Below the pieces are notes generated by a model, which ran no database searches, was not told where the DNA came from, and was given only the letters and a program-made list of their open reading frames with translations. The translations under genes were made by a program, and so were the position numbers. DNA of 64,000 nucleotides, taken from contig NZ_JAMXOD010000006.1 in the NCBI RefSeq assembly GCF_024721305.1, positions 62,001 to 126,000 on the forward strand, given 5' to 3'. Of this stretch, positions 35,255 to 56,932 are shown piece by piece; within the stretch, counting starts at the first letter, position 1; each line of letters starts with the position of its first letter. Source of the stretch: Aequitasia blattaphilus (lineage in GTDB: Bacteria > Bacillota > Clostridia > Lachnospirales > Lachnospiraceae).

Positions 35255-35271
35255 GTACCGAATTTCGGTAC
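35255..35271. repeat. Dispersed palindrome, copy 1 (next to integrase 3' end)
   Basis: GTACCGAATTTCGGTAC, perfect 7-bp arms around a 3-base centre, followed by seven T residues on the plus strand. It lies 10 bases beyond the integrase stop codon. Other copies are listed separately. Confidence 0.9.
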
Positions 35272-35281
35272 TTTTTTTATG

Positions 35282-36445
35282 CTAGTCAATAATAATGTCG
35301 GACATTAAATCTAAAGCTGTATCTGACATTTTCTCAACAATATGTGCATAGTTCCGCATAATGGTTTCAACAGAGTCCCCCATGATTTCACCAACAACTT
35401 TAATATGTACTTTCTTAATAAGTGCAAGTGTCGCAAAGGTATGTCGAAAACCATAAGGTGTTATGGGATTAAGGAAAAAACGTTCTTCTGTATTTCCTTT
35501 CTTTTCTTCCGCTTTATTTATTCTTGCTATCAGTCGACGAAGGTGATTTCGATAATTACTGGTTGATATACACTCGCCATGCTCATCCACAAAAAGATAC
35601 TGATACTCGTCAGAAGAAGAGCGTAATGAATTGCTCAATTTTATTTGAGTTTCAAGTAGTGGAATTACTTTATCTGGAAGTCGAAGACTTCTCTGTGCAC
35701 CAGAGTTTTTTAAGTCTGTTTTTCGCTTTTTATGGTCTAATCCATAATTCAAGGTTAATAGCTTGTTTTTAAGAAGAACGTCTCGTATACTGATTCCGCA
35801 AATCTCGCCGGGACGCATCCCAAAGGTTGCATGAATACGATACAGATTATAGTAGTGATCCTGTTTAGTAAGAGGGTGATTCATAAAAAACATGAGCGCT
35901 TCTTCGGTCCAATACTTATCGCTTTCCACCCCTTTTGACTTCCGTGTTGGGCGCTGTATATTGGCTTTACAGGGGTTTTTAGATATTACCCTTAAAGGTT
36001 CTATGCAATATTCAAAAACTTGTGATAAGAGGTTAAAGGCATCGTTTACAGTTGCAGCAGCATATCTTTCAGTTAAGAAAGTAACCCAATCTTGAATTAC
36101 TTCAGGAGTAAGTTCTTTAAAACTATAATCATCCAGTATCCCCAAGTAAATATTAGCATAATTTGTGTCGCGTTCTTGGGTGGATTTATCTTTTGTAATT
36201 CTTGTTTTCAGCCAGAGTTCTTTCCCAATCTTGAATAAGGTGTTTTCTTTTTCTTTAAGCTGTAATGAATCTTTTGATATTTCGAGCTTCATACGAGCTT
36301 CTTCTTTTACAGCATCACCGTGTCTCAAATAGGCATTTCCCCATTTATATTTTTTCTCTCCGGTAATTGCATATAAAGAAATCACAGGATAATAGTAGGT
36401 AACTGTTTTCCCATTAGATTTCCTTTTCTTTTTTTGAATACTCAT
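35282..36445 (-). CDS. int: Tyrosine recombinase / integrase of the element
   Basis: A 387-residue phage-type integrase. A basic N-terminal region is followed by a SAM-like core-binding domain (about 90-185) and a catalytic domain. Visible catalytic positions are the first Arg in FGMRPGEICGI, the Arg of box II in TPYGFRHTFATLAL, and the nucleophile Tyr in VETIMRNYAHIVEK. The box II first His is Tyr here, and the later His/Trp position is Asp (IMGDSVET); both occur in some active relatives, but they are worth noting. It lies next to tRNA-Pro and points toward it. It should insert and, with the excisionase, excise the element. Confidence 0.93.
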   Translation of the reverse strand: MSIQKKKRKSNGKTVTYYYPVISLYAITGEKKYKWGNAYLRHGDAVKEEARMKLEISKDSLQLKEKENTLFKIGKELWLKTRITKDKSTQERDTNYANIYLGILDDYSFKELTPEVIQDWVTFLTERYAAATVNDAFNLLSQVFEYCIEPLRVISKNPCKANIQRPTRKSKGVESDKYWTEEALMFFMNHPLTKQDHYYNLYRIHATFGMRPGEICGISIRDVLLKNKLLTLNYGLDHKKRKTDLKNSGAQRSLRLPDKVIPLLETQIKLSNSLRSSSDEYQYLFVDEHGECISTSNYRNHLRRLIARINKAEEKKGNTEERFFLNPITPYGFRHTFATLALIKKVHIKVVGEIMGDSVETIMRNYAHIVEKMSDTALDLMSDIIID

Positions 36446-38927: not shown

Positions 38928-38944
38928 GTGCCGAAGGACGGTAC
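38928..38944. repeat. Dispersed palindrome, degenerate copy upstream of parA
   Basis: GTGCCGAAGGACGGTAC keeps the GTRCCG/CGGTAC stem with a G-T pair and a 5-base loop. It ends 16 bases before the parA start and abuts its ribosome site GGAAAGGAG. Found by comparison with the perfect copies. Confidence 0.65.
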
Positions 38945-38960: not shown

Positions 38961-39695
38961 ATGATTATTTCAGTTTACAACTTAAAGGGCGGTGTCGGTA
39001 AATCCACTACCGCTATTAATTTGCTTTATAACCTAGCATTAGAGGGAAATAAAGTACTTGGGATTGATTTAGACCCACAATGTAATTTGACACCTTTTTA
39101 TGCACAGGCAAATGAAATGAACACCATTGCTGATGCATTGATAGAACCTAATAGATTTGATGACATAATTGAGGATACAAAATATAAAGGCATTTCCCTA
39201 ATCAAAGGAAGTACAAAATTGAAAGATGAGCTTTTTGAGCCAAGTAGTTTACTAAATATGTTGAAAGTGTCAAAGAGAAAACAAGAGTTTGATTACGTTA
39301 TTATTGATTGTCGAACGTCTTGTGAGAATTTAACACTTGCTGCCCTAATGGCAACGGATATGGTACTGACACCAATAATTCTCGACGGATATTGTAGAGA
39401 TAATCTTATAGAGGTGCAAAATATTATTGAGAACGTGAAAGAGGAAAATCCAAAACTACAGTGGAATGTATTTGTGAATAAATTGAAACATAGAAAAGCA
39501 CAACGTAGTATTCTGGAAGATTTAATTGCTCATTACGAGTATCCAATTTTCGATATTTGCGTTATGGAGCGTGCTGCTGTTGAGAATTCTTTGGCACTTA
39601 GAAAACCCTTGGTACGTCATGCAAGTAAAAATCAAGCGACTTTAGATTTCCAAGATCTTGCGAGAAGGGTGATGGAAGAAGAGGGAGGAATCTAA
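38961..39695 (+). CDS. parA: ParA-type partition ATPase
   Basis: A 244-residue Walker-type ATPase. The deviant P-loop YNLKGGVGKSTTAINLLYNL is at residues 5-24, GIDLDPQCNLTPF near residue 36, and DYVIIDCRTSCENL near residue 113. It belongs to the Soj/ParA group used for plasmid and element segregation. I chose the start at 38961 because the good GGAAAGGAG lies upstream. An earlier in-frame ATG-like start would run through the palindrome. parB follows two bases after the stop, so both are co-translated. Confidence 0.9.
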   Translation: MIISVYNLKGGVGKSTTAINLLYNLALEGNKVLGIDLDPQCNLTPFYAQANEMNTIADALIEPNRFDDIIEDTKYKGISLIKGSTKLKDELFEPSSLLNMLKVSKRKQEFDYVIIDCRTSCENLTLAALMATDMVLTPIILDGYCRDNLIEVQNIIENVKEENPKLQWNVFVNKLKHRKAQRSILEDLIAHYEYPIFDICVMERAAVENSLALRKPLVRHASKNQATLDFQDLARRVMEEEGGI

Positions 39696-39697: not shown

Positions 39698-40858
39698 ATG
39701 GCAAATTTAGAAAGTGTTTTTAAGAAAAATATACAGAAACAAACACACCCCACGCGGAAAACAAGCTGGATTCACTATACAAAGCTAAAGCAAAGTAAGT
39801 ACCAGTATCGTGATAGGGACAGGGAGACAGTTAGAGATTTTGCGGACATTGTAAAGATGGATGGACAGATTCTTCAAAATTTAGTGGTAAGAAAATTGGA
39901 TATAGATGAATATGAGATTATCTCCGGTCATAAACGTCATGCTGCAGCTACTCTATTAACAGAGGAAGACAAACTCGAGGAGTATGCATTTCTCCCCTGT
40001 ATGTTGGTAGATAGTGGTGATATACGTACGAGATTTTCTGTAATATCAACAAATTCTTTTGATGAAAAAACACCATATGAGTTAATGCATGAAATTGAAG
40101 AGGCTGCATACTTAATAGAAAATTTTCCAGAAGAGTTTCCAGATATTCCAGAAAAGGGACGTTTAGTTGAGAAGTTAGCGTGTAAGCTAAAAATGAAAAA
40201 AAGCACTATCGGGGAATATCGAGCTATTGCGAAAAGTCTTAGTGATAAGGGGATGGAGGCTTTTGAAAAAGGAGACCTTGGGAAAAGTGCAGCACATACT
40301 TTGTCACGTTTGACTCCGGAGGAGCAAGAAGAAGTTTTGGAGCAAGGGATTATCACCAATAAGGAAATTAAAGATTATAAGGAAAAGAAAGAGAATGTAC
40401 CGAAATTCGGTACAACAATGGAATCAGAAGACGATGAACTGACAGTGCCGGGACAACTTAAAATTATAAATGTAGATATGGAAGTCCAAGAAGACGATAC
40501 TCAACTTTTACCGAGAGAAAAGCCATTAGAACGAAATGGAATCAATAAAAGTCGTTATCATATTGATTTGCCAGTCATGAAAAATATGGATCAGCGTGAA
40601 GAGTTTTTACGAAATTATAAGGAATGGAACATCTGGACAACTAATCAATATACAGAGGAGACATTTTATCGATTAGATTTACCAGATGACTCATATATTG
40701 TTGTAAGGCATTTCCCCTATAGCAGTTATTGGGGAGGAGCTGAAAAACACGAAGGAAGCACTTATTATCTCATGACAGAAGACAAGAAGTTTTTTAAAGA
40801 TGGTGAAACGAATATGACACAACTTAAAGAACATTTAAAAGCTATATTACGAAAGTAG
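39698..40858 (+). CDS. parB: ParB-like DNA-binding protein with extra C-terminal domain
   Basis: A 386-residue protein. The N-terminal ParB nuclease-like domain holds YQYRDRDRETVRDFADIVK and the CTPase motif-like SGHKRHAAATLL. A helix-turn-helix region (KLACKLKMKKSTIGEYRAIAKS) follows. Residues about 285-386 form an unusual C-terminal extension (YHIDLPVMKNMDQREEFLRN, YRLDLPDDSYIVVRHFPYSS), which looks like a separate, possibly DNA-independent domain. It lies in an operon with parA and most likely binds repeated sites on the element. The palindrome at 40397 is inside its own coding region and encodes VPKFGT. Confidence 0.85.
   Translation: MANLESVFKKNIQKQTHPTRKTSWIHYTKLKQSKYQYRDRDRETVRDFADIVKMDGQILQNLVVRKLDIDEYEIISGHKRHAAATLLTEEDKLEEYAFLPCMLVDSGDIRTRFSVISTNSFDEKTPYELMHEIEEAAYLIENFPEEFPDIPEKGRLVEKLACKLKMKKSTIGEYRAIAKSLSDKGMEAFEKGDLGKSAAHTLSRLTPEEQEEVLEQGIITNKEIKDYKEKKENVPKFGTTMESEDDELTVPGQLKIINVDMEVQEDDTQLLPREKPLERNGINKSRYHIDLPVMKNMDQREEFLRNYKEWNIWTTNQYTEETFYRLDLPDDSYIVVRHFPYSSYWGGAEKHEGSTYYLMTEDKKFFKDGETNMTQLKEHLKAILRK
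40397..40413. repeat. Dispersed palindrome, copy within parB
   Basis: GTACCGAAATTCGGTAC, perfect, in frame in parB and read as part of VPKFGT. Confidence 0.9.
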
Positions 40859-40961: not shown

Positions 40962-41036
40962 ATGAAATTATTATTTTATATATTTGCACCATTTTATTTA
41001 GTATTTAAGATTATTGAATCATGTATGCATTTTTAA
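40962..41036 (+). CDS. Small membrane-type peptide (24 aa)
   Basis: The frame starts MKLLFYIFAPFYLVFKIIES and ends CMHF. It follows AAGGAGGAATAAATT, an excellent ribosome site, and consists almost entirely of hydrophobic residues. It ends a few bases before the palindrome and the sortase gene. It may be a small membrane peptide that helps the sortase, or a leader peptide. I cannot assign a family. Confidence 0.45.
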   Translation: MKLLFYIFAPFYLVFKIIESCMHF

Positions 41037-41040
41037 AAAT

Positions 41041-41057
41041 GTACCGAAATTCGGTAC
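41041..41057. repeat. Dispersed palindrome, copy upstream of sortase
   Basis: GTACCGAAATTCGGTAC, perfect. It ends 17 bases before the sortase start codon and abuts the GGAAAGG ribosome site. Confidence 0.9.
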
Positions 41058-41074
41058 GGAAAGGATTATTAATA

Positions 41075-41827
41075 ATGAGTATTGGGAAAAAGATATTGAT
41101 AGGTATTATGATTGTTTGCGTTGTAATGGCAGCATATTTTGGATACGCTGCTTTCAAGGAAGATAAGCCCTATAGAGACAGTGAACAAAAGACGGAAAAA
41201 GTAAAAGAAGATTTTATTGCATCTGGAGATGAAAAGGACTCTCCGTTAGAACGTCAGATAGATTTTAAGGGATTGAGAGACATTAATGTAGATATTGTTG
41301 GGTGGATTTACATTCCAGGGACAGGAATTGACTATCCTATTTGTCAAGGAACAGATAATGAATACTATCTCAATCATGATTTTACAAAGGCGTTTAATCC
41401 GTTAGGTGCGATTTATATGGATTTTAAGGAAGCAGCAGATTTTTCCGGATTGCACACATTAGTGTATGGACACTATGTAAATGAAAGTCAACTTTTTGGA
41501 GAATTGTCAAAGTATAACGATCCTGCATTTGGAAAAGAACATTCCAGTATTTATATTTACACACCAAAACAGGCGATAAGATATCAAATTTTTAGTGTAG
41601 AGACCATTTCCAGCAATAACGAAATATACAACATACAATTCAAGGAGGAAACTAAAGAAAAGTATAAAGAATGGATTAAGGATAGTATTGAAAACGCATT
41701 ATATAAAGAGACTGTAATTCCTACAGAAACAGATAAAACGCTAACGCTGTCAACATGTACCAGTGAATATTCAGAGACATCGCGTTTTGTTGTCCATTCA
41801 CTAGGAATAGAGTTTAAGCAGCAGTAA
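41075..41827 (+). CDS. srtB: Class B sortase
   Basis: A 250-residue membrane transpeptidase. The N-terminal anchor helix is about residues 4-23 (ILIGIMIVCVVMAAYFGYA). The class B core has IVGWIYIPGTGIDYPICQG, the catalytic His in TLVYGHYVNESQLFG, the catalytic Cys in TLTLSTCTSEYSE and the Arg in TSRFVVHSLG. It should cleave a sorting signal and join the protein to the wall or to another subunit. Likely substrates are the large adhesin and the small protein at 50322, both carrying PxTG-like motifs. I chose the start at 41075 because GGAAAGG lies at the right distance. Confidence 0.92.
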   Translation: MSIGKKILIGIMIVCVVMAAYFGYAAFKEDKPYRDSEQKTEKVKEDFIASGDEKDSPLERQIDFKGLRDINVDIVGWIYIPGTGIDYPICQGTDNEYYLNHDFTKAFNPLGAIYMDFKEAADFSGLHTLVYGHYVNESQLFGELSKYNDPAFGKEHSSIYIYTPKQAIRYQIFSVETISSNNEIYNIQFKEETKEKYKEWIKDSIENALYKETVIPTETDKTLTLSTCTSEYSETSRFVVHSLGIEFKQQ

Positions 41828-41844
41828 TATTTAGGAGGACAAAT

Positions 41845-42000
41845 ATGAGAAAAACGAAATCATTGTGGGCATATATCGATGGCGAGAAACTTGTTGATGT
41901 GGTTGAAGTGGCTCTTGACAGAAACATGATGCTCGAAGAAGTGAAGCAATTGCTTATTGCGGAGAATCAAGGGCATGAAGTTGTTTTTAAAATAGAATAA
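41845..42000 (+). CDS. Small soluble protein of unknown function (51 aa)
   Basis: The frame starts MRKTKSLWAYIDGEKLVDVV after the strong ribosome site TTAGGAGGACAAA and ends with QGHEVVFKIE. It is acidic and helical, has no membrane segment, and lies 17 bases after srtB. I do not recognise it. Its very good start makes it likely to be real. Confidence 0.55.
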   Translation: MRKTKSLWAYIDGEKLVDVVEVALDRNMMLEEVKQLLIAENQGHEVVFKIE

Positions 42001-42066
42001 AAACGATATGCAAAGAATGAATGAGAGAAAATAAGTAAATGCTTAACTAAGGCTTAGGAGAATGCT

Positions 42067-42228
42067 ATGAAAGAAGGATTAAACTTAGTGGTATCAGACG
42101 ATAGAACGAAAATTGAAAAGCAGATTGCAGCTTTAGAGTGGCAACTTGGAAAGGGATTGGATGAGAAAAGCAAGTTGATTTTTGAGGAGTCACTGAAGCA
42201 GCTTAAAAAGCAACTCAGAAACTTATAA
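42067..42228 (+). CDS. Small helical protein of unknown function (53 aa)
   Basis: The frame starts MKEGLNLVVSDDRTKIEKQI and ends LKQLKKQLRNL. It follows CTTAGGAGAATGCT. The highly charged helix pattern suggests a short coiled coil. It lies in a run of small co-directional genes between srtB and ssb. No family is known to me. Confidence 0.55.
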   Translation: MKEGLNLVVSDDRTKIEKQIAALEWQLGKGLDEKSKLIFEESLKQLKKQLRNL

Positions 42229-42274
42229 ACTGAAATTTGGAAAGGAACATAGCAAGAATTTGAGGAGATTTAAC

Positions 42275-42571
42275 ATGAATAATAAGAAAAGATTTAAAGC
42301 TATAAAGAAAATGATATTTACTGTGAGTGTAATCCTACTAGTACTACTTCTATGTCTTGTTTTTGCAAAAAAAGTCATAGAAGAAAACTCATATATCTTG
42401 TATATGATTGCTGTTTTTATTTCCCCAATTATAGGGACTTTGGTAGGATATTTAAACTTTGGGAGACCTAATAGTTTAGCGGAAACAATTATAACCTGTC
42501 CAAACTGTCGTAAAAGAATCAAAGTTAGACAATCCATAGAATTGGCAGAGGAGGTAGATGATGAAATTTGA
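42275..42571 (+). CDS. Membrane protein with C-terminal zinc-ribbon half-site
   Basis: A 98-residue protein with a basic start (MNNKKRFKAIKKM) and two hydrophobic segments at about residues 13-33 and 43-65. A cytoplasmic tail contains CPNCRKR, a CxxC knuckle that could bind zinc as a dimer. The start at 42275 has GAGGAGATTTAAC upstream. It overlaps the next gene slightly. Function is unknown. The layout of two helices plus a CxxC tail is seen in accessory proteins of several integrative elements. Confidence 0.55.
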   Translation: MNNKKRFKAIKKMIFTVSVILLVLLLCLVFAKKVIEENSYILYMIAVFISPIIGTLVGYLNFGRPNSLAETIITCPNCRKRIKVRQSIELAEEVDDEI

Positions 42572-42776
42572 AACGCATAAGTCTATTATCAATGTAGAAA
42601 ATGGGGAATCGTACGATATTGGTGACGTAGTAACAATTAAGAGACTGGATGGTAGTGGAGCTGGCTCATGCAAGATTGTAAAAATCACAGACACGGGATT
42701 TCATTACAGTCAGGGTGGCAGTAAGAAAAAGAACGTACAGTATAAGGATATTGAAGGATTAGATAAGTACAAGTAA
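42561..42776 (+). CDS. Small beta-rich protein of unknown function (71 aa)
   Basis: A soluble protein starting MKFETHKSIINVENGESYDI and containing VVTIKRLDGSGAGSCKIVKITD, a beta-strand pattern like a small SH3/Tudor-type barrel. GGAGG lies six bases before the chosen start. Its start overlaps the preceding gene, so translation is probably coupled. No family is recognised. Confidence 0.5.
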   Translation: MKFETHKSIINVENGESYDIGDVVTIKRLDGSGAGSCKIVKITDTGFHYSQGGSKKKNVQYKDIEGLDKYK

Positions 42777-42817
42777 TTAGGAACCCAAACATGATTAATA
42801 AATGAGGAGGAAATAGG

Positions 42818-43225
42818 ATGTTAAATAGTGTAATACAAATGGGAAGATTGGTAAAAGATCCAGATATTTATAGCAATAATAAAGATGGTCAGGAGAAGAC
42901 GTGGGGTCGCTACCGTCTGGCAGTCGAACGAGATGTAAAAAGAGAGTCCGGACAAGACTGTGACTTCTTTAATTGTATAGTAACTGGATCAAAAGCAAAA
43001 TTTGCAGCCAAATATCTTAATAAGAGCAGTAAAATTGTTGTACAAGGAAGATTACAGTCTGGTAGCTACGAGGATTCTGAAACTGGAAAGAAAATTCCAA
43101 CCGTAGAAATTTTTGTTTTGAATCAATATTTTGCAGATGGATTTAAGAGAAGCACAGATAGTGAAAATGGATATGACAATAGCATTGAAGAGAAAGGGGG
43201 AAATGAAGGGTATTACATGGAGTAA
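42818..43225 (+). CDS. ssb: Single-stranded DNA-binding protein
   Basis: A 135-residue OB-fold SSB. The family pattern is clear: MLNSVIQMGRLVKDPDIYSN, DFFNCIVTGSKAKFAAKYLN and IVVQGRLQSGSYED. The tail is acidic but lacks a classical DDIPF-type tip; it ends with GGNEGYYME. It is probably used during replication or transfer of the element. The ribosome site is GAGGAGGAAATAGG. The rep gene follows 27 bases later. Confidence 0.9.
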   Translation: MLNSVIQMGRLVKDPDIYSNNKDGQEKTWGRYRLAVERDVKRESGQDCDFFNCIVTGSKAKFAAKYLNKSSKIVVQGRLQSGSYEDSETGKKIPTVEIFVLNQYFADGFKRSTDSENGYDNSIEEKGGNEGYYME

Positions 43226-43252
43226 TGATTAGAATAAACGGGGGATATAGAG

Positions 43253-44359
43253 ATGGAATTTAATTACTACTATGGAAGTGAAAGTGAGATGTTTAGCTTT
43301 TTCAGACTTCCGAAGATGCTTATTCAAGATAAACGCTTTTCAAACCTTAAATCAGACTCAAAGCTCCTTTATGGCATTATGCTTGATAGAATGTCATTAT
43401 CTCAAAAGAATGGCTGGTTAGACGATGAAAACAGAGTATATATAATATTTACAGTTAAGAATATTACGGAGGAATTTAATTGCTCCGAAAGAAAAGCAAT
43501 TATGCTTCTGCAGGAGTTAGAGCAGATACACTTAATTGAAAAAAGAAGGCAAGGGCAAGGATTACCGAATATTATATACGTTAATAATATTTTCGTTGCT
43601 GCAGAGCATATTGAAGAGGCTGCAGATAGAAGTAAAGAAAAGGAAAATGAAGGAATAGTATCTAAAAAAAGAGATGAAGATGTAGAAGTAGTGCTGCGAC
43701 AAAAGCAAAACATTACAGTCAGTAAAAGTTCATATGCAAAAAAAGACAGTACTCTTTCCCCGGGAGAAGTAAACAAATTTCAGACATGCAAAAACGTGCA
43801 GGTCAAGAAGTGCAAATTCTTGCAGGTCAAGAGGTGCAAAAACATGCGGGTCAAGAAGTGCAAATTCTTGCAGGTCAAGAAGTGCAAAAACGTGCACCCT
43901 AATAAGACTAATAATAACAAGACTGATAATAGTATTAAAGATACCCTAAAACTGAAAGATAAATTAAGGCGCGTAGAAGAGTATGAGCCTTGGTTTGATC
44001 CAGAGAGCCCAGAGGTTTCTTTGACGAGACAATTTATAAATCAACTTCAAGTTGACCAGTTACCAACAGAGCGTTTTCCAGAATACGGGGAATTGTTTGA
44101 TATGTGGGTTACTCCGATATCACAGTTATTGCGAGCTGGATTCACCGCAGGGCAAATTGCAAAGACCATTGAATATTTAAACCTAGATGATTTTTGGAAG
44201 CCCCAAATAAGAAATACAAGAAAGTTTAAAACGGAGTTTGAAAGACTATACTTGAAAGCTAAAAACAGTAATATCTACAAGGAGGGCAAGAGTAAGTTTA
44301 GCAACTTTTCAGAGCGAGAATATGATATGGATGAACTGCAGAGACGATTGATTCAATAA
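43253..44359 (+). CDS. RepA_N-type replication initiator with internal iterons
   Basis: A 368-residue protein. The first about 100 residues match the RepA_N winged-helix domain (FFRLPKMLIQDKRFSNLKS, SKLLYGIMLDRMSLSQKNGW, FNCSERKAIMLLQELEQI). A variable linker follows. Residues 179-218 contain five 8-residue repeats (CKNVQVKK, CKFLQVKR and so on), which are encoded by tandem 24-bp DNA repeats. The C-terminal domain (LRAGFTAGQIAKTIEYLNLD) resembles the usual host-adapted C-terminal domain. RepA_N plasmids often carry their origin inside the rep gene, so this element may replicate as a circle after excision. Confidence 0.88.
   Translation: MEFNYYYGSESEMFSFFRLPKMLIQDKRFSNLKSDSKLLYGIMLDRMSLSQKNGWLDDENRVYIIFTVKNITEEFNCSERKAIMLLQELEQIHLIEKRRQGQGLPNIIYVNNIFVAAEHIEEAADRSKEKENEGIVSKKRDEDVEVVLRQKQNITVSKSSYAKKDSTLSPGEVNKFQTCKNVQVKKCKFLQVKRCKNMRVKKCKFLQVKKCKNVHPNKTNNNKTDNSIKDTLKLKDKLRRVEEYEPWFDPESPEVSLTRQFINQLQVDQLPTERFPEYGELFDMWVTPISQLLRAGFTAGQIAKTIEYLNLDDFWKPQIRNTRKFKTEFERLYLKAKNSNIYKEGKSKFSNFSEREYDMDELQRRLIQ
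43787..43906 (+). repeat. Five tandem 24-bp iterons within rep (candidate oriV)
   Basis: Units start at 43787, 43811, 43835, 43859 and 43883. Each begins TGCAAA, and four keep GGTCAAGARG at the end. Units 2 and 4 have TGCAAATTCTTGCA; units 1, 3 and 5 have TGCAAAAACRTGC. The fifth unit is degenerate in its second half. The alternation of two unit types suggests dimer-wise expansion. The frame is preserved because 24 is a multiple of three. Confidence 0.9.
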
Positions 44360-44714
44360 ATATGTGTAAGTGAAAAAAGCGGAAGTAAATGTACCTAAAT
44401 GTACCTAGATATGAAAAATCGAATATGTTATATTAGACTTAAGAAGGTGTATCTATAGCAGATACATGGATACGGAGAACACGAAGAGTCTAATAATCAT
44501 TGGGCTCTTTTTTTGATGATTTGGAGATGATATGAAAAACAGAGACCCACCAAAATGGTAAAAGACGTTGGATGTTCAAGTAAAAGTAAGATTAATTGCA
44601 AGAAACATAATTTCATGATATCTTATATTATATGATGTGAAATGCAAAATATTCTTACGTAAAGAAGTTAGAAGGAAGAGAGTAAAATCAAATCACTTGT
44701 AAAGGAGGACAATT
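44360..44714 (+). promoter_or_regulatory. 355-bp non-coding region: repeated leader motif, terminator and AT-rich upstream DNA
   Basis: No convincing gene lies here. At 44381 GGAAGTAAATGTACCT is followed by a second copy of AAATGTACCT and TAGAT; a related copy stands at 62419. GTATCT and AGATAC (about 44446-44465) form a small hairpin. AAGAGTC and GGCTCTT (44484-44509) form a terminator stem followed by TTTTT. The region may make a small RNA or act as an attenuator. The remaining 44515-44714 is AT-rich and contains a possible promoter for the wall-binding protein, followed by its strong AAAGGAGGACAATT ribosome site. Confidence 0.5.
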
Positions 44715-45695
44715 ATGAAGATGACATTAACAAATTTAAGAAAAAAACTAATTGCCGGAATGGCGATGATGTTAGCTGGGGTATTTTTGTTTAGTAGTGT
44801 TGCAATGGCAGCACCAAAAAACTCTTGGTATAACGAGGGCAATACTTGGTGGTACTATAACAGCAAGGGAAAGAATGTGGTAAACGATTGGATCTGGACG
44901 GGATATGCGTGGTACTATATGGGTGCTGACGGTGTTATGAAAGATAACGCTTTCATCGAAAACAATGGAAAAACATATTTCCTACAGCCTGGGGGCGCAA
45001 TGAAACAAGGCTGGCTAGACCGTGGAAATGGTGACTGGAACTTCTTTAACAATTCCGGTGATATGGCAAAAAACCAATGGGTACTGTCAAGTGGACTTTG
45101 GTACTACATGGGAGCTGATGGATACATGGTTCGTAACAGATTCATCACTTTGGATACCGAATACTTTATCAACAATCAGGGGGTAATGTTGACGGGATGG
45201 ATCGACTGCGGTAACGGCGATTGGAAATATTACAAAGCCGACGGTCGAAGTGCAAAGAGCCAGTGGATCGGCAACTACTACATCGGTTATGATGGATGGA
45301 TGTGGAGAGATTGCTGGATCGGCAATTACTATGTAGACATTACAGGTAAATGGGTTCCCGGAGCAGTTAAAGAAACAACTAAGCCAACTAATCCCGGAGG
45401 CACAACAAATCCCGGTGGAACAACCAACCCCGGTGGAACAACGAATCCCGGTGGTACAACCAACCCCGGCGGAACAAATCCCGGCGGTGAAATCGTAGAT
45501 GACGAAACAGCAGATTGGGCGTTTAGAGATTTATACATGTATTATGCAGCTAAACGTACAGATGCATGGGAAAATACATTCCGTAACGATTTTAAGAAAA
45601 ATGATCCAGTATTTTACAACGCAATTATCAATAAAACGCTAGATCAATGGTATGAAGGTTGCTATGAATGGGGAACTTTACGAACAGATATGTAA
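44715..45695 (+). CDS. Secreted protein with cell-wall/choline-binding-type repeats
   Basis: A 326-residue cargo protein. It has a signal peptide (ends VAMAAPKN, cleavage near residue 32). At least six aromatic wall-binding repeats follow (GNTWWYYNSKGKNV, GYAWYYMGADGVMK, GNGDWNFFNNSGDM, SGLWYYMGADGYMV and others), residues about 36-215. A linker of NPGGTT repeats follows. The 70-residue tail (WAFRDLYMYYAAKRTDAW) is unlike anything I know. The wall-binding repeats should hold it to teichoic acid or similar polymers without sortase. The base composition of the repeat part looks richer in G and C than neighbouring element genes, which suggests a separate origin. Confidence 0.82.
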   Translation: MKMTLTNLRKKLIAGMAMMLAGVFLFSSVAMAAPKNSWYNEGNTWWYYNSKGKNVVNDWIWTGYAWYYMGADGVMKDNAFIENNGKTYFLQPGGAMKQGWLDRGNGDWNFFNNSGDMAKNQWVLSSGLWYYMGADGYMVRNRFITLDTEYFINNQGVMLTGWIDCGNGDWKYYKADGRSAKSQWIGNYYIGYDGWMWRDCWIGNYYVDITGKWVPGAVKETTKPTNPGGTTNPGGTTNPGGTTNPGGTTNPGGTNPGGEIVDDETADWAFRDLYMYYAAKRTDAWENTFRNDFKKNDPVFYNAIINKTLDQWYEGCYEWGTLRTDM

Positions 45696-45786: not shown

Positions 45787-48700
45787 ATGAAAAAAAGTAA
45801 ACAGAAACAAAAAAGCATTTTTGTCAGAATAACATCTATGTTTTTATTGCTGGTAATGATGTTGTCACTTGTATCACCGGGATTAAGGGAGGTAGAAGCA
45901 GCAGATCAATTGTATCCTCCCGGAAGATTTGAACGATGGAAAGATTTAGTTATGCCGGGAAACAACACAGGGATGTCATCTTCAAGTTCGGGAATAGAAC
46001 AGATAACAGTTACGCAAAGTGATCGGAGTCAATTTCTTTCTGATCCTCGCCATTATCACGGATTTGCAGCTGGACGAGCAGAGAATTTTTTTCCGACTAA
46101 TAACACTGGTTCAATAGAGGTTAACTATGAAGGGGTTCTTGAGATGCCAGATGGTCGTCCTGTTGGACTAAGACTAACAGTAAGTAATTTTTCGCTAACA
46201 GGACCAAGTATAGGTGGTGTAGCAGAACCCATTCCTTTTATCTCGTTTTCAGAAGATATAAAAGAAGGACATAATTCTAATGGGATTAGTTCATTTGATA
46301 TTCATGCTGAGTTCTATTATGGGGACACAGGAGAAAAATATCTTGGGAGTGGCATGTACTTCTATTACGGTTCACTAAATCTTGGAGAAGGTGTTATTTT
46401 CAAGTCAGGTAATGTTGTAGATACAATAAGATTAACAGATACTAATGTACAAACACTAGACTTGGGATGGGAAGGTCTAAGTGATAATTTCGTGGACGTT
46501 ATGACTGATCCTACGTTTAACCGAAATACTATCGTTGCAAAAACTAATTCGGCTGAGTTGTTTTACACTGTATACACGAGATCCCTAAAGTATACACAAG
46601 GGCGAGGGTTATTAGATCCAAGCTTTGAACTTCCTGATTCTAATTTGGTTAAAGAATGGTCGGGTTATAACTCAGATTTATGGTGTGCCATTTCATTTAG
46701 TCCGATGGCAGCAACAGCTCCAATGCCAGAAAAAGATATGAAAGTTGCAGGAAGTGACTGGATAAGAGAATATGATGGTGTCAAGCTTGGAGAAGAAATA
46801 ACATATCAAGTAAAACAGAGGGTAGAAACTCTTGGTTACAATGGAGCCTATAAATATGATTCTTTCTCTTTTTCAGATAAGTTGCCAGCAGAAGTTGATT
46901 ATTCAAGTGCAACCATTTGCAAAAATGGGACAGACATTGGTAGTGGAAATTATACTATTAATTATGAGCCGAATAGTCATACAGTAACGGGAACCATCAA
47001 TGCTAATTATTTAGCAAATGGGGTGGATTATAAAGGTGAAACCTATCAGTTTGTAATCAAGACAAAGGTAAATAAAAAGGCATTTGACACAGGTGCAGCG
47101 TTTACCAATAAAGGAACGACGACAATCAACGGAGATAAGGCTGAAACAAATGTTACAACAGTTAAGCCTGTTATGCCAAAACTTTCCATTGAAAAAACGA
47201 TAAATGGAAAGAAATATGAAGAGTATAAAGTCGGAGAGAAAATCCCCTACAAATTAGTAATTAAAAACACAACGGCTGGATCAGTAGCAAAGGGAGTTGT
47301 CATAAAAGACCATTCACTTCCAACGGATTTAGAGATTGATGTATCAAGTGTTAAAGTCTCAGGAATTCAAGGTGCCACAGCTTCTGTAACTAATAACAAA
47401 TTAACGGTTAATATTGCTGAACTTACAACAGAGACGGTAACTGTAACATTTACAGGGGTTGCAAATAAAACTCTTAATGGTAAAGAGACAATAAATACTG
47501 CAAGCGTTTCGGCGAAGAATGTTCCAGACGAACCAAAAGATACGAGTAAGGTATATGTCAATTCACCGGAAATCACATTATCAAAAGAAGTTGAAAAATA
47601 TGAGTATCAAGTAGGAGATGATATAAAGTACACATTGAAAGGCAAACAGACAATTTCAGGTGCGACTGCTAAAAACGTCGTAATAAAAGATGAAAGTCTT
47701 CCGGCAGATATGAGTATTGATCCAAAATCTGTTAAGGTAACAGGACAAGCTAATGTTGTACTGAACGGGAAAACCTTGGAAAATAAGCCAACAGTGAATG
47801 TAGATGGAAGTAAAATTTCCGTTAGCTGGCCATATCTACAGAATGAAGAGGTTGCTGTAAGCTTTACAGTAAAAGCTCCAGCCGATAAAAATGGGATGGA
47901 GATTATCAATACAGCAATTATGTCTGCATCGAACGTTGAGAAAAATAATATCGAAGCAAAGGCTAAGGTGTGGATTAACACTCCTAAACTTGTTTTAGAC
48001 AAGAGAGCGGATCGAGAGTCAAAAGAATATAAGGTAAGTGATTTGGTGACCTATACGATTGATTTAACCAATAAGCAGGTCGGTACGATTGCTCGTAATA
48101 TTATCATAAAAGACGAGATCAAAACGGAAGGAGTAAAACTCCAAAAGGGCAGTATTGTCTTTACCGACTCAAAGGGAAAAGTGATTAAGCCAATAAGTAT
48201 TGAAATTGTCGGAAATACCTTCACGGCAGTGTTAGAAAAAGACAGTGTTAATCCAGACAACTATAGCATTTATGAAAACGGCAAAGTGACAGAACAAAAG
48301 AAACAGAATCCAGAGGAGTTGAAAACGGAGACCCTTATCACTTGTGAGTATCAAGTTGCAATTGTGAGTGAAAGCCTAGCTGGAAAATCGGTTGAAAATG
48401 TTGCAACAGCTTCATCTGATAATACGCCAGACGAAAAAGATGACGAAGTTGTCATTGTTCCAAAGGATGAAAAATTCCCGGGATTATCAATTGTAAAAAC
48501 CGCAGATAAAGCGGAGTATAACATAGGTGATACTTTCCATTATCAATTGGATATAAGTAATAAAGTTCCAGGCACAAATGCAAAAGAGGTTGTAATCGAA
48601 GATGCATTCCAAGTTGATGGTGCAGTAATTGATCAAGAAAGTATTAAAGTAACATTTAATGGAAAAGAATTTGAACCCAAAGAAGTTACTTTTAGTGATG

Positions 48701-50259
48701 ACGGTAAGAGTTTCAAAATTGTAACAGGGAAAAACTTAACACAGGATGATCGTCTTAAGGTTCGTTATAAAGGTACTTTTGAAGAAGCAGCTCTTGTACA
48801 AGACGATGGAATTATTAACATTGCGACTGCTAGTGCAACAGAGGTTCCCCCAGTTAGTGATGATAATATTGTCTATATTAAGCAGAAAAATGGACTTTTA
48901 AACATTGAAAAATCATCTGATAAAGAAACTTATTGCGTAGGTGAAACAGGTAAGTACAAAATAACTGTTATGAATAAAGTCCCAGATTCTAAAGTCCTTG
49001 ATGTAACGATTGAAGATGCTTTCCAAACGAAGGGAGTAAAAGCGATTTCATCAAGTCTTAAGCTCTATTTTAATGATGAAGAGATAAAGCTTACAGAAAA
49101 GATGTTAAAAGTAAAAGATGGAGTATTCTCCATTGTTACAGGTAAGAATTTGACTGATCAAGATAAAATAACGGTGACTTATGATGTTCTCTTTGACACA
49201 GCTGTGACAGATAATACAGTAGTAAATAAAGCTGTAGCGGAAGGAAAAGAAGTTCCTAAGGTTGATACAGATAATAAAGTGACACTTCTTGAACCATCCC
49301 TGAATCTTATAAAGACTGTGGATAAGGAGGTCTATCAAGTAGGAGAAACAGGAAAGTATACTTTGGAGATTACAAATCTTGTTGCAGATACTGTTGCAAA
49401 GAAAATTATTGTCACAGATGAAAATTTGACAAAGGGAAGTGAATTAAAGGCAGATACTATTAAAGTGTTTTTCAATGGGGAGGCTCTAAAGCTCTCAGAG
49501 GAGCAAGTTAAGGTTAAAGGCAATAAATTCACCATAGAAACAAGAAAAGACCTGTCAGATAAAGATAAGATTGTTGTAACCTATGATGTTGTATTTACGG
49601 ATGAAATAGAAGCGGATACTATTGTTAATAAAGCTAGTGTGAAGAGTGAGAATACTCCACCGGCGGAAGCAGAGCATATGACAAAAGTTTTGAGACCTTT
49701 ATTGCAAATTCAAAAAGCTGCAGATAAGGAATCTTATGTACGAGGAGAAACTGCAAATTACCGTCTGACTGTAGTAAATACGGTAGAGGGATCCGTTGTA
49801 AAAAATGTTATTATTACAGATGAAAATGTGACAAAGGGAAGTGAATTAAAAGCGGATACTATTAAATTGTTTTTCAATGGTGAGGCTTTGGAACTTAAAA
49901 AGGAGCAAATCATAGTAGAAGGTAATAAATTCACAATAGAAACAGGTAAAGATTTAACCGTAAAGGATAAGCTGGAGGTGACATATTCAACCTTGCTAAA
50001 AGAGGAAATTGAGGAAGATGTTGTTACAAATAAGGCAACAGCAAAAGGAGATAATGTGCCACCATCAGAAACAGAGCTTAAAGTTAAATTGCCGAAGCCG
50101 GGTGCACCTGAAACAGTGAATGGTGAAGCACCAGCGACAGGTCTTAGAAATAATAAGAATCTATATTTAGGAATTGCAGTTGGATTTTTGATTATAGCGT
50201 TCATTAGTTATTTGATTTACCGGAAACAAGGGAAAAAGAGCTATAATAAAAAAATCTAA
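45787..50259 (+). CDS. Large multi-domain surface adhesin with sortase-type anchor
   Basis: A 1490-residue protein. The signal peptide is followed by the mature N-terminus at about residue 40 (VEAADQLYPP). Residues about 45-315 form a unique head. A first DUF11-like domain at about 318-465 (LGEEITYQVKQRV) is followed by seven related beta-sandwich repeats beginning near residues 468, 593, 733, 898, 1036, 1171 and 1305. Each has the pattern xLxIxKxxDKxxYxVGExxxY and ends in NxAxxxxxNxPP. Such domains often carry Lys-Asn isopeptide bonds. The C-terminus has EAPATG (about residue 1446), a membrane helix and KKSYNKKI. It is probably attached to the wall by the element's sortase and used to bind mating partners or host surfaces. 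Confidence 0.88.
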   Translation: MKKSKQKQKSIFVRITSMFLLLVMMLSLVSPGLREVEAADQLYPPGRFERWKDLVMPGNNTGMSSSSSGIEQITVTQSDRSQFLSDPRHYHGFAAGRAENFFPTNNTGSIEVNYEGVLEMPDGRPVGLRLTVSNFSLTGPSIGGVAEPIPFISFSEDIKEGHNSNGISSFDIHAEFYYGDTGEKYLGSGMYFYYGSLNLGEGVIFKSGNVVDTIRLTDTNVQTLDLGWEGLSDNFVDVMTDPTFNRNTIVAKTNSAELFYTVYTRSLKYTQGRGLLDPSFELPDSNLVKEWSGYNSDLWCAISFSPMAATAPMPEKDMKVAGSDWIREYDGVKLGEEITYQVKQRVETLGYNGAYKYDSFSFSDKLPAEVDYSSATICKNGTDIGSGNYTINYEPNSHTVTGTINANYLANGVDYKGETYQFVIKTKVNKKAFDTGAAFTNKGTTTINGDKAETNVTTVKPVMPKLSIEKTINGKKYEEYKVGEKIPYKLVIKNTTAGSVAKGVVIKDHSLPTDLEIDVSSVKVSGIQGATASVTNNKLTVNIAELTTETVTVTFTGVANKTLNGKETINTASVSAKNVPDEPKDTSKVYVNSPEITLSKEVEKYEYQVGDDIKYTLKGKQTISGATAKNVVIKDESLPADMSIDPKSVKVTGQANVVLNGKTLENKPTVNVDGSKISVSWPYLQNEEVAVSFTVKAPADKNGMEIINTAIMSASNVEKNNIEAKAKVWINTPKLVLDKRADRESKEYKVSDLVTYTIDLTNKQVGTIARNIIIKDEIKTEGVKLQKGSIVFTDSKGKVIKPISIEIVGNTFTAVLEKDSVNPDNYSIYENGKVTEQKKQNPEELKTETLITCEYQVAIVSESLAGKSVENVATASSDNTPDEKDDEVVIVPKDEKFPGLSIVKTADKAEYNIGDTFHYQLDISNKVPGTNAKEVVIEDAFQVDGAVIDQESIKVTFNGKEFEPKEVTFSDDGKSFKIVTGKNLTQDDRLKVRYKGTFEEAALVQDDGIINIATASATEVPPVSDDNIVYIKQKNGLLNIEKSSDKETYCVGETGKYKITVMNKVPDSKVLDVTIEDAFQTKGVKAISSSLKLYFNDEEIKLTEKMLKVKDGVFSIVTGKNLTDQDKITVTYDVLFDTAVTDNTVVNKAVAEGKEVPKVDTDNKVTLLEPSLNLIKTVDKEVYQVGETGKYTLEITNLVADTVAKKIIVTDENLTKGSELKADTIKVFFNGEALKLSEEQVKVKGNKFTIETRKDLSDKDKIVVTYDVVFTDEIEADTIVNKASVKSENTPPAEAEHMTKVLRPLLQIQKAADKESYVRGETANYRLTVVNTVEGSVVKNVIITDENVTKGSELKADTIKLFFNGEALELKKEQIIVEGNKFTIETGKDLTVKDKLEVTYSTLLKEEIEEDVVTNKATAKGDNVPPSETELKVKLPKPGAPETVNGEAPATGLRNNKNLYLGIAVGFLIIAFISYLIYRKQGKKSYNKKI
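49413..49947 (+). repeat. Recent duplication inside the adhesin gene
   Basis: The segment starting near 49413 is repeated at 49815, exactly 402 bases (134 codons) later. Stretches such as GACAAAGGGAAGTGAATTAA are identical and most differences are single bases, unlike the older repeats upstream. The last two adhesin domains therefore arose or were homogenised recently. Confidence 0.8.
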
Positions 50260-50264
50260 GGTAG

Positions 50265-50287
50265 AGCAGGGATGACCTGCTTTTTTT
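50265..50287 (+). terminator. Terminator after the adhesin gene
   Basis: AGCAGG and CCTGCT pair around GATGA, followed by a T run that runs directly into the palindrome at 50288. Confidence 0.75.
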
Positions 50288-50304
50288 GTGCCGAATTTCG
50301 GTAC
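50288..50304. repeat. Dispersed palindrome, copy upstream of the small sorted protein
   Basis: GTGCCGAATTTCGGTAC. The single change from the consensus makes a G-T pair in the stem. It ends 17 bases before the start codon at 50322 and directly follows a terminator. Confidence 0.85.
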
Positions 50305-52338: not shown

Positions 52339-52352
52339 AAAGTAACCATGAT

Positions 52353-52376
52353 AAAGACCTAAAGGGTCTTTTTTTT
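52353..52376 (+). terminator. Terminator before the transfer genes
   Basis: AAGACC and GGTCTT pair around TAAAG, followed by a run of T residues that reaches the palindrome at 52377. Confidence 0.8.
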
Positions 52377-52393
52377 GTACCGAATTTCGGTAC
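52377..52393. repeat. Dispersed palindrome, copy upstream of the transfer operon
   Basis: GTACCGAATTTCGGTAC, perfect. It directly follows a terminator T run and ends 23 bases before the start at 52417. Confidence 0.9.
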
Positions 52394-53869: not shown

Positions 53870-54259
53870 ATGATAATACCGATTAATAAGGACTTTGAAA
53901 AAGAATATCAAAATAACTCGTGGAAGGGGCTGACATTGCGCCAGACGATTAGTGGTCTCATTGCATTCTTAGTGAGCATAGGTATTGCAATCCTACTCTA
54001 CTTGAAGTTTGGATTTTCACCAGTAGCATGTGTTTATCTTTGCACACCACTTATGGGAGGAATTATCTTTTTGGGAGTCTATCGTTATCAGGATTTAAGT
54101 CTTATTGAACTTTTAAAATGTATGTTATTTACAAAAAACACAAAGGAACTTTCTATGATTTTAGAGGAGTACGATCCCGCAAATCAAAAAGTCTATGCGA
54201 TGGAATATCCAAAGACAAAAAAGAAGAAAATCAAAAAATCTAAAAGGAGGAAAAAATAA
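53870..54259 (+). CDS. PrgI/VirB3-like protein
   Basis: A 129-residue protein with two helices at about residues 25-65 (ISGLIAFLVSIGIAILLYLK, then CVYLCTPLMGGIIFLGVYR). The N-terminal IPINKDFEKEYQNNSWKGLT matches the start of PrgI family proteins. A very basic tail (KTKKKKIKKSKRRKK) follows. PrgI proteins act with the VirB4 ATPase, whose gene starts directly after the stop codon. Confidence 0.85.
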   Translation: MIIPINKDFEKEYQNNSWKGLTLRQTISGLIAFLVSIGIAILLYLKFGFSPVACVYLCTPLMGGIIFLGVYRYQDLSLIELLKCMLFTKNTKELSMILEEYDPANQKVYAMEYPKTKKKKIKKSKRRKK

Positions 54260-56932
54260 ATGGGAATATTCAATGCCACAAGTACATTTCTGGAACGTAA
54301 AAAGAAAACAACTCCAGTATATAAGACACCGAAAAGTATTTATCAAGCATTACAAGTTTCGGACTATGAGCCAACAGGCCTGTTTAAACTAGAGCCAAAG
54401 GGAGGTGTAGGTTTATATGACTGCTGTTACATCTTCGAAGACATTAATTATAGCGCGAAAAATGAAGAACAGAAAGAATCAACTTTAGTGAAAATGATGC
54501 GCTGGTTAAATGCAATGAATACGGATTTTAAAATTAGCATAGCAAATGAATATAGGAATATGGATGAATACTTTAAAAAAATGTTCATTGAAAAAAACAA
54601 AGAGGAATACCTAGCTCTTAGTGACGGAATAAGTCAGTGGCGAGTAGAGAAGGTAGGTCAGGAAGCAAATGTTAATAAGATGATGTATTTGGTTGTGACA
54701 ACAAGAGCAAAAGATTTTGAGGAAGCAGGGTTCTACTTTAAGACAATTGATTCGGAACTAAATAAGAACTTTGAATCTTGGGGATCTCGCCTTCATAAAA
54801 TGACTGCTTTTGAGCGATTCGCAAGTTTGCGGTCGTTCTTCCGTCAGGAAGAAAACAACTTGGCTGAGATTCTTCCAAAGCTCAAGAATGGAGATATTAA
54901 AAACAATGTATTACCAATATCATTAAAAAGCTATAGCAATTTTATGCTGATGGGCGAGACCTATGTTTCTGTTCTTTTTGGACATGACTATGGAAGTTCT
55001 GTAGATGCAGATAAATTTGTCCATGAGTTTATTGATGTGCCCTTTCCGCTATATCTGACGTTAGATTATGCTCCAATTGAGCGACAAACTTTAAAGGATC
55101 GGTTAGCGGCAGCACATACAAATAACGAGAGAGCAATACAAGAGGAGGCAGATGCAAAGGCTAAAGCAGGAGCAAAGGTTATCAGTACGTCATATCGTAA
55201 AGAAAAAATCAAAGATGAGTTAGAAGCTTACCGTGATCAAGTGGATGATAACTCGGAGAAAGCATTTTATATGGGACTGCTTCTTGTAGTTGTAGCAGAT
55301 AGTGAAGAGGAACTGGCGCAACGGATTCAACGTATGCAATCAATTGGCAGACAAAACAGTGTACGTCTGGATATCTACAATTTCCAACAACTCAATGCTT
55401 TAAATACGGCACTTCCAATTGGTGGGCGGCAAGTAAATCATATGCGTAGCTTCTTAACATCCTCTATTGTGGCTTTTCATCCATATTATGCTCAGGACAT
55501 TCAAGAAATTGGAGGTATTTTTTATGGCATCAATCGAAAGACAAAAAGAGCAATTCTAGCAGACCGAAAAAAGTTAAAGAGTCCACATGGAATTGTTGTG
55601 GGTCACACTGGAGCGGGAAAGTCGATGCTTCTAAAAAGTACAGAAATTTCTCAAGTATTGTTGTCAACAGATGATGATATTCTTGCAATTGATCCACAGA
55701 ACGAGTTGGAAGGTGTAACCCCGGAATGGGGAGGGACATTTATTGATTTCACACCAAAAGCAGAAATATACCTGAATTCTTTTGAAATTCCAGAAGAGAT
55801 TTTTAACGGATCGAATAAGAAGAAAGAAAAATTCGTTGCAAATCAAAGTGATTATGCAAAATCTTTTTGTACTGCAACCATGACAAATATCTTAGTGACA
55901 CAGGAACATTTGTCAATCATTGGGCGGTGTGTGAGACAGATGTATGAAGAATCTTTTGAGCAGAAACGACTAAAAAAACAGCCAACACTTATTATCCTAC
56001 GAGAGAAGTTACGACTGGAAATGGAGTCGGCGGGAGACACTGGAGATAAGCGAAGAATTCAAGAAATCTATAATTCTTTAGAAGAATATACAGACGGTGG
56101 TTATGATATGTTCTCACATCCTACAAATATTAAAATTAATAACCGCTTTACGGTCTTTGGAATTGCAAATGTTCCTGAAAATATGTGGGAAGTATCAATG
56201 ATTACAATAATGAATTATCTTCAGACAAGAATTGATTATAACCAAGACCTTCAGAGAGCAACAAGATTTATTGTAGATGAAACACAAGTAGTGTCAGAAA
56301 AGCCAACCAGTGCTGCTATGCTTGTAAAGGCTACCGTTACATTTAGAAAATACGGTGGGATCTGCACTTTTCTTATGCAGAATGCATCGAAAGCAATTGA
56401 GAATAAGGCGTTAAAAGACATGTTTGCAAACTGTGGATACAAATGTTTCTTGGATCAATCTGGAGGAGATGCGAGGGCAATTAGTGAGATTATTGAATTT
56501 AGTGAAGAGGAATTTAATTCTCTTGCCGAAGAAAAGCCGGGACATGGAGTTATGGTATGGGGAAAGAAGACAATTCTTTTTGATGCGTATATGGACCCAG
56601 CTAATCCGATCTATGATTTGATAAGTACAAACTTCCACGAAAAAGCTTCAAGAGCAAAGAAGAATCAAGAGAGTGTACCGAATTTCGGTACAAAAGAAAT
56701 AGAATTAGATCCAGAGCAAATAAAAGAAACCGAGACTCTAGTAATCGATGAAGTGGATAAGGAAATCATATGTCAGGCAGCGAGTCTGAGTGCAATTTCA
56801 GTAAGAGATGCAGCAGCAATACTTTCCAAATCAGAAGATGAAGCTGTGGACATTCTTTCTTCCTTGGTTTCTGCGAAAATACTTCAATCCGAAGGTGAGG
56901 ATTTTAATAGACAGTATCGGAAATGTAGCTAA
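54260..56932 (+). CDS. VirB4-type conjugation ATPase
   Basis: An 890-residue motor protein of the type IV secretion system. The N-terminal domain (about 1-400) is the CagE/TrbE-like part. The Walker A GHTGAGKSMLLKS lies near residue 447, the Walker B RFIVDETQVV near residue 669, and TFRKYGGICTFLMQNASKA follows. A C-terminal extension of about 90 residues contains the palindrome-encoded VPNFGT and a small helical/winged-helix region (SLSAISVRDAAAILSKSEDE), which is not part of the standard VirB4. It starts right after prgI with an AAAAGGAGG site inside that gene. Confidence 0.92.
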   Translation: MGIFNATSTFLERKKKTTPVYKTPKSIYQALQVSDYEPTGLFKLEPKGGVGLYDCCYIFEDINYSAKNEEQKESTLVKMMRWLNAMNTDFKISIANEYRNMDEYFKKMFIEKNKEEYLALSDGISQWRVEKVGQEANVNKMMYLVVTTRAKDFEEAGFYFKTIDSELNKNFESWGSRLHKMTAFERFASLRSFFRQEENNLAEILPKLKNGDIKNNVLPISLKSYSNFMLMGETYVSVLFGHDYGSSVDADKFVHEFIDVPFPLYLTLDYAPIERQTLKDRLAAAHTNNERAIQEEADAKAKAGAKVISTSYRKEKIKDELEAYRDQVDDNSEKAFYMGLLLVVVADSEEELAQRIQRMQSIGRQNSVRLDIYNFQQLNALNTALPIGGRQVNHMRSFLTSSIVAFHPYYAQDIQEIGGIFYGINRKTKRAILADRKKLKSPHGIVVGHTGAGKSMLLKSTEISQVLLSTDDDILAIDPQNELEGVTPEWGGTFIDFTPKAEIYLNSFEIPEEIFNGSNKKKEKFVANQSDYAKSFCTATMTNILVTQEHLSIIGRCVRQMYEESFEQKRLKKQPTLIILREKLRLEMESAGDTGDKRRIQEIYNSLEEYTDGGYDMFSHPTNIKINNRFTVFGIANVPENMWEVSMITIMNYLQTRIDYNQDLQRATRFIVDETQVVSEKPTSAAMLVKATVTFRKYGGICTFLMQNASKAIENKALKDMFANCGYKCFLDQSGGDARAISEIIEFSEEEFNSLAEEKPGHGVMVWGKKTILFDAYMDPANPIYDLISTNFHEKASRAKKNQESVPNFGTKEIELDPEQIKETETLVIDEVDKEIICQAASLSAISVRDAAAILSKSEDEAVDILSSLVSAKILQSEGEDFNRQYRKCS
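56675..56691. repeat. Dispersed palindrome, copy within virB4
   Basis: GTACCGAATTTCGGTAC, perfect, in frame in virB4 at the start of the C-terminal extension and read as part of VPNFGT. Confidence 0.9.

Follow-up and report, generated by a model that had tools for sequence, protein, structure and literature searches.

In the 64,000-nucleotide stretch of the Aequitasia blattaphilus genome analyzed here (the window; contig NZ_JAMXOD010000006.1, positions 62,001 to 126,000), an integrative and conjugative element (ICE) carries repeated copies of a 17-bp palindrome with the consensus GTnCCGrAwTyCGGnAC. As judged by sequence comparison, these palindromes are probably DNA sites for the ICE-encoded ParB, forming a scattered set of parS or operator sites comparable to the KorB operators of plasmid RK2. 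This reading follows from the confinement of the palindrome to the ICE, its co-occurrence with ParB, an element-specific dialect in both halves of the site, arrays of sites, and sites within parB itself. An initial annotation of the window had offered two models, a new parS for the element's ParA and ParB or an RNA-level control hairpin; the last four of these observations support the first model.

The palindrome is confined to the mobile element

Across the 3,203,047-base assembly, the core pattern GTNCCG-N5-CGGNAC occurs at 10 places, all within the ICE on one contig (C53), as compared to 0.003 expected in the ICE from base composition. The motif had been described as missing from the chromosomal part of the window, and this holds assembly-wide. 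At up to two mismatches on both strands, the window itself yields 14 matches (100 shuffles: mean 1.1, maximum 6). A pattern scan recovers the seven window copies at the positions and with the sequences that the initial annotation gave. They are listed below without strand, on the window scale that is used throughout.

35255..35271: site 1, GTACCGAATTTCGGTAC, directly past the 3' end of the integrase gene int
38928..38944: site 2, GTGCCGAAGGACGGTAC, outer arms kept and center degenerate, ends 16 nt 5' of parA
40397..40413: site 3, GTACCGAAATTCGGTAC, within the parB linker codons (VPKFGT)
41041..41057: site 4, GTACCGAAATTCGGTAC, ends 17 nt 5' of the srtB start at 41075
50288..50304: site 5, GTGCCGAATTTCGGTAC, between a T-run hairpin and the Shine-Dalgarno (SD) sequence of the next gene
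52377..52393: site 6, GTACCGAATTTCGGTAC, after a T-run hairpin, 23 nt 5' of the next start codon
56675..56691: site 7, GTACCGAATTTCGGTAC, within virB4 (VPNFGT)
65214, 67673 (GTCCCGAAATTCGGTAC) and 71641 (GTACCGAATTTCGGCAC): three further sites past the window end

The spacings previously reported (16, 17, 17, and 23 nt to parA, srtB, the 50.3-kb gene, and the 52.4-kb gene) are correct by sequence, as is the VPKFGT reading inside parB; VPNFGT in virB4 follows from the frame of the site in the open reading frame (ORF) 54260-56932. Sites 5 and 6 are each immediately preceded by a terminator-like T-run hairpin (50260-50288 and 52340-52377, respectively) and immediately followed by the SD of the next gene.

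The element encodes ParA and a predicted ParB

The genes of the putative partition module and the regulators encoded beside it are as follows.

36517 and 37104: XRE-type repressors
37957: HTH_17 protein
Upstream of parA: orf193
38961..39695, + strand: parA, Walker-type ATPase (KGGVGKST; PF13614, 116 bits vs 27)
39698..40858, + strand: parB, ParB_N domain (PF02195), with a predicted helical DNA-binding domain, a low-confidence linker, and a C-terminal domain (AlphaFold model, Foldseek)

Only 2 nt separate parA from parB. The ParB_N match reaches 32.9 bits vs 26.3, box I is recognizable with GHKR for GERR, and a profile search also matches Noc, ParB, and Spo0J. An AlphaFold model of ParB (with five homologues) has a mean pLDDT of 62, with blocks of 57-89 over residues 21-230, 74-89 over the putative DNA-binding part (161-230), and below 50 over 234-300. 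Among structures in the PDB, the top Foldseek matches to this model are Noc, ParB/Spo0J, and RK2 KorB, at TM by target of ~0.4-0.57; Noc 7nfu is matched at 5.6e-10 (TM by target 0.56) and KorB 8qa9 at 3.7e-8 (0.55). With respect to ParABS systems, the locus combines a Walker-type ParA beside parB, a ParB_N domain with a modeled helix-turn-helix fold, and repeated palindromes near parAB (38928, 40397, and 41041).

Site-rich genomes encode a close ParB

Genome contigs of 84,980 species were scanned for the exact palindrome, yielding 70 stretches; contigs bearing at least two exact copies come from Clostridia-type organisms. A subset of 35 of these 70 loci, from 34 genomes, was picked by Clostridia-like names plus one Lactobacillus, and sites were counted at up to two mismatches (genomes and stretches carry our working labels, G and L). 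In whole genomes, a close ParB (E ≤ 1e-57) is encoded by 8/10 with at least six sites vs 2/24 with fewer (Fisher p = 1e-4), where the cut at six was set post hoc, once the counts were known. The close ParB shares a contig with a core site in 12/12 cases. Two more rich genomes, G608 (27 sites) and G614 (15), emerged from a degenerate-pattern search of two overlapping sets, 392 genomes of the order and 398 of the family, and both encode a close ParB. Among family genomes, 34/299 have a ParB match, which falls below E = 1e-50 only in the window's own genome and G057, both with a site.

When 22 element proteins were sought in the fetched stretches of 14 related site sets, ParA and ParB were the most recurrent (12/14 each), followed by orf193 and VirD4 (10 each), VirB4 (9), the relaxase (8), the XRE proteins (5 and 6), the RepA_N initiator (2), and HTH_17 (1). 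A 60-kb contig of G329 carries ParAB and 13 sites with no relaxase or orf193 match and with a distant VirD4 only (25%), so that the sites of this contig track ParAB rather than the conjugation genes of the window element. G309 resembles G329, but its contigs are broken, and VirB4 and VirD4 fragments remain.

Beyond these genomes, a tblastn search of plasmid and phage collections with ParB returned one plasmid and one phage record, both partial, and no ParB was confirmed in the viral contigs searched. The exact motif was present in six viral stretches at one site each, and tblastn with the element proteins other than ParA gave no match there. Class genomes with a ParB match at 1e-25 number 4/391, comprising the window's own and G1099, G982, and G1037, whose ParBs are intermediate.

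Among 12 distant or intermediate ParB loci inspected, G260 alone shows a genuine repeated palindrome of which one copy lies in parB. There, a divergent ParB (31% identity) is accompanied by four copies of GTGTCC-N5-GGACAC in the 10.5 kb around parAB (L194 2514, 3304, 8440, and 9198), one of them inside parB. This palindrome has the same 6-5-6 geometry, and 200 local shuffles never gave more than two copies. The matches at G1037 were AT runs, parB coordinates are approximate for G1099, G982, and G1037, and the ParBs of G166 and G264 were not confirmed by tblastn.

Two other palindromes were observed during this survey. G282 has three with TACTTA arms (L191 12602-12683) at spacings of 43 and 38 bp, and a divergent parB lies ~2 kb away. 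In G442, which belongs to another family, five large contigs carry a longer palindrome of 21 to 25 bp, in which GTACCGGAWTYCGGTAC is flanked by CTT...AAG, with one copy per stretch (L184 10049, L185 10368, L186 9994, L211 9676, and L212 9854). This may be a separate system that has a similar core.

Half-site dialects differ between elements

For the analysis of site variation, 178 sites were collected by the core pattern alone, which misses weaker sites. The set leaves out G442 (and G428), the G442 copies being part of the longer palindrome above, G315 (2 core sites, ParB 27%), and the few-site genomes except G322 and G324; G629, G709, and G141 are G329, G326, and G310 again (identical coordinates). 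Each element was found to have its own half-site dialect, with GTA, GTG, or GTT in the outer part and CCGA or CCGG following. Perfect 8+1+8 palindromes were also counted de novo, and in most elements the commonest repeated one belongs to this family. GTACCGAA is the commonest in the window element, G306, G307, G309, G310, and G316, GTACCGGA in G313 and G326, and GTGCCGAA in G317. The dialect of G608 is GTGCCGGA/GTGCCGAA and that of G614 is GTTCCGAA, while G329 has a mix of GTACCGAA and GTTCCGAA halves with one perfect copy.

Across elements, the two halves covary: position 3 matches in 146/178 sites, as compared to a mean of 81 and a maximum of 101 in cross-element shuffles. Within an element no such covariation is seen, as shuffles give 148.8 ± 2.7 against the 146 observed at position 3 and 122.1 ± 3.8 against 123 at position 7. 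Covariation across elements with independence within them is the pattern expected of two independent subunits of one DNA-binding dimer, and not of RNA base pairing.

The putative recognition helix of ParB reads TxGEY in 11/13 proteins and TxSEY in 2/13 (G317 and G608). The two Ser-for-Gly ParBs are exactly those with GTG as the main dialect, a coincidence of 1 chance in 78 under random placement that was noticed post hoc. GTG also appears as a minor half-site in elements with Gly ParBs, including that of the window.

Palindromes with another (even) center were also seen, namely GGTGCCAA-NN-TTGGCACC five times in G315 (L178 7733-9911) and CTTGCCAA-NN-TTGGCAAG three times in G309 (L139 280-2384). 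These are candidates for terminators or another protein's sites.

Sites occur singly, in arrays, and inside parB

Sites are found both singly across the whole element and in arrays. G608 has seven at exactly 41-bp spacing, and G309 has three in 37-bp steps. In-frame copies inside parB number five in G317, three in G307, and two in G324, where they are read as VPKVGTQ- and VPKSGT-type repeats; the window parB has one.

By our own ORF script (the start downstream of site 52377 is cut off at the piece end), 92 of the 178 sites were called coding and 86 intergenic, the intergenic share of bases being 12.8%. The script placed the G608 array (L213, 9 sites) in coding sequence, with all three + frames open. 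A 41-bp period is no multiple of three, which suggests that this array is probably non-coding and that the intergenic share is probably greater than 86/178. The frame is unambiguous for 49/92 coding sites, and 37/49 are in the frame that reads VPxxGT. Among co-directional intergenic sites, 37/78 end 5-30 nt before a start codon, as compared to 25.2 ± 3.4 expected for uniform placement in the gap. The same excess is present in gaps of at least 100 bp (14/49 vs 6.8 ± 2.4 expected).

Alternative explanations

The excess of SD-proximal sites bears on the proposal that the palindrome acts in mRNA as a stem-loop near ribosome-binding sites, where it would be bound by a protein or processed by an RNase. 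RNA folding gives -7.9 kcal/mol for the 17-mer, with an equal value for its G-U form and -3.3 for the A..C form of copy 71641. In SD-proximal copies, moreover, asymmetric pairs on the sense strand are skewed to 13 G..T and 1 A..C, as compared to 27:29 in all others (Fisher p = 0.002), an asymmetry that stems from 7 related elements with G329 supplying 4 of the 13. SD-proximal copies may be under a second constraint, and strand-biased mutation in leaders is a duller alternative source of the bias. An A..C bias of coding sites, seen with an early gene call, was gone with a second caller and more elements (18 vs 21).

The initial annotation had regarded such a hairpin as an equally good model, arguing that variant copies change A to G opposite T and so retain G-U pairing. 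The window variants do read that way, but copies 67673 and 71641 break the pairing. The annotation had also looked to compensatory changes in homologous elements; none was found, as within-element shuffles reach the observed agreement of half-sites. Each element keeps to one stem sequence, a constraint that hairpin formation alone would not impose. Over half of the sites lie in called coding sequence, and an Rfam search of the window at gathering thresholds returned two tRNAs and nothing else. Given the independent halves and the balance of G..T and A..C outside SD-proximal sites, the hairpin finds no support as a general account, for which we regard it as very unlikely, and what stands is the signal in the SD-proximal subset. 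A composite proposal, which we consider rather doubtful, would let the SD-proximal 17-bp word serve as both a ParB landing site and an mRNA-leader hairpin, so that either the partition complex or the hairpin gates operon-internal genes and the element couples its segregation state to its conjugation genes, with parB carrying its own centromere in the form of tandem repeats translated as part of the linker.

An operator of another element protein, such as an XRE-type repressor (36517/37104), the HTH_17 protein, or the orf193 product, would make the palindromes a regulon rather than a centromere. Many sites adjoin gene starts, these proteins are encoded next to parAB, and orf193 recurs widely in the related site sets. 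Nonetheless, the XRE and HTH_17 proteins are found in far fewer of those sets, orf193 has no Pfam match and was not found in the fetched stretches of G309 and G329, which have ParAB and sites, and tandem arrays and gene-internal sites are unusual for a simple repressor. We regard this explanation as improbable. More improbable by far than the ParB reading, and scarcely credible on these data, is a tag borne by the sequence and read by no partition protein, e.g., a host nucleoid-protein site or a DNA modification or uptake signal. The palindrome is dispersed and tolerated within coding sequence as such a tag might be, but 0 copies occur elsewhere in the host assembly and the dialect differs between elements.

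Several observations count against the palindromes being ParB sites. The mean pLDDT of the ParB model is modest, and a plain DNA site predicts no G..T bias in SD-proximal copies. Dialect correlates weakly with distance between ParB DNA-binding domains (Mantel r 0.37, p 0.04); the corresponding values are r 0.38, p 0.07 for the ParB N-terminal domain and r 0.16, p 0.25 for ParA. No close ParB was found in G310 (7 sites) or G323 (6), for which a missing contig is possible, and in G315 the ParB next to the two core sites is a distant one (27%). In the protein survey, ParAB stands out only modestly from its neighbors, with orf193 and VirD4 at 10/14; its stretches were partly fetched around ParB hits, and in whole genomes ParB alone was sought. 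Finally, the fetched stretches of G1099, G982, and G1037 contain no core site and no comparable repeated palindrome, and most of the more distant ParB loci also lack such sites. As the intermediate ParBs have no core sites nearby, sites of this family appear to go with the present clade of ParBs.

Predicted function and relation to known systems

If the palindromes are ParB sites, each subunit of a ParB dimer would read one GTnCCGrA half-site. By analogy to ParB and KorB biology, ParB would load at the sites and spread, and ParB loaded at ten sites could coat the 40-kb element. Family knowledge further suggests that ParB, together with ParA, would retain an excised, replicating circle at cell division, and that ParB at sites abutting ribosome-binding sites would damp transfer and maintenance genes during quiescence. 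We infer binding, partition, and repression by ParB on these grounds.

Canonical chromosomal parS is a 16-bp TGTTTCACGTGAAACA. The Spo0J/parS and Noc-NBS systems share with the present one a ParB_N domain, a similar predicted fold (Noc is the best structural match), and dispersed palindromes. Unlike chromosomal parS, the site described here is not of the TGTTTCACGTGAAACA type, has 17 bp with an odd center, and is confined to a mobile element.

Another likeness is to KorB and its operators (OB) of RK2 (IncP-1), which the Foldseek match also recalls. KorB, a member of the ParB family, is described as silencing genes for replication and transfer, its OB sites lying at distances of 4-10 bp or of 45 to >1000 bp from promoters (PMC11790492); ParBs and gene expression in general are treated in PMC7022226. 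Both systems have a ParB-family protein and a conjugative element, and the sites described here may, like OB, lie both near and far from promoters. The site sequence differs, sites here are also found within parB and in the interval separating a T-run hairpin from an SD sequence, and the carrier is a chromosomal ICE. SGI1 is likewise an integrative mobile element with parS-like sites, reported to have two parS-like repeats that use the ParABS of an IncC plasmid and aid its own partition (PMC10954446). SGI1 thus relies on two copies and the ParB of a helper plasmid, whereas the present element has ten copies and its own ParB.

The CD1110-family VirB4, over the NF045971 cut-off, and the relaxase, VirD4, and PrgI genes resemble those of Tn1549/CTn-type ICEs, with which the element is presumably affiliated, going by the CD1110 family name. 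Among the literature entries and abstract openings covered for ICE-encoded parS, which take in few subscription papers, no description of this system and no named parS for Tn1549/CTn-type elements were found. Five exact site strings (the GTA and GTT dialects and one CCGG form; GTG excluded) gave one match in the papers covered, a Medicago PIN-gene paper.

If the ParB reading is true, this ICE family devotes ten to ~thirty ParB sites per element to an organized nucleoprotein state, integrated or excised. Natural dialects with matching ParBs would then offer a ready series for studying specificity and might supply orthogonal ParB-site pairs for labeling DNA, and a parB whose own sites are translated as a repeated peptide would be a case of overlapping information.

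Element boundaries and gene content

A 46-bp direct repeat, the 3' part of tRNA-Pro, flanks the ICE at 34672-34717 and 75336-75381. The presence of this repeat at both ends indicates an apparently complete element, 40,664 bp in length. Its remaining features in the window are as follows.

34642-34715: tRNA-Pro
34672..34717, + strand: left end of the ICE, 46-bp direct repeat in the 3' part of tRNA-Pro (the right copy lies past the window end)
35282..36445, - strand: int, ICE tyrosine integrase (PF00589)
54260..56932, + strand: VirB4-type conjugation ATPase, CD1110 family (NF045971, 500 bits vs a cut-off of 325)

The gene set comprises the tyrosine integrase, XRE regulators, ParA, ParB, sortase B, SSB, and a RepA_N initiator, along with surface proteins, PrgI, the CD1110-family VirB4, a relaxase, and VirD4. 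The surface cargo (window 41021-50259; L008 119-1636) consists of sortase B, choline-binding-repeat proteins, and a 1490-aa DUF11/AgI-II surface protein. Past the window end are three consecutive 193-aa ORFs, the first two of which are unrelated to each other.

The RepA_N initiator makes a replicating circle plausible. In RepA_N plasmids, the origin is located within repA. The initiator gene of the ICE contains in-frame 24/48-bp tandem repeats, with 4.6 copies of 24 bp (window 43787-43896), and these may be origin iterons.

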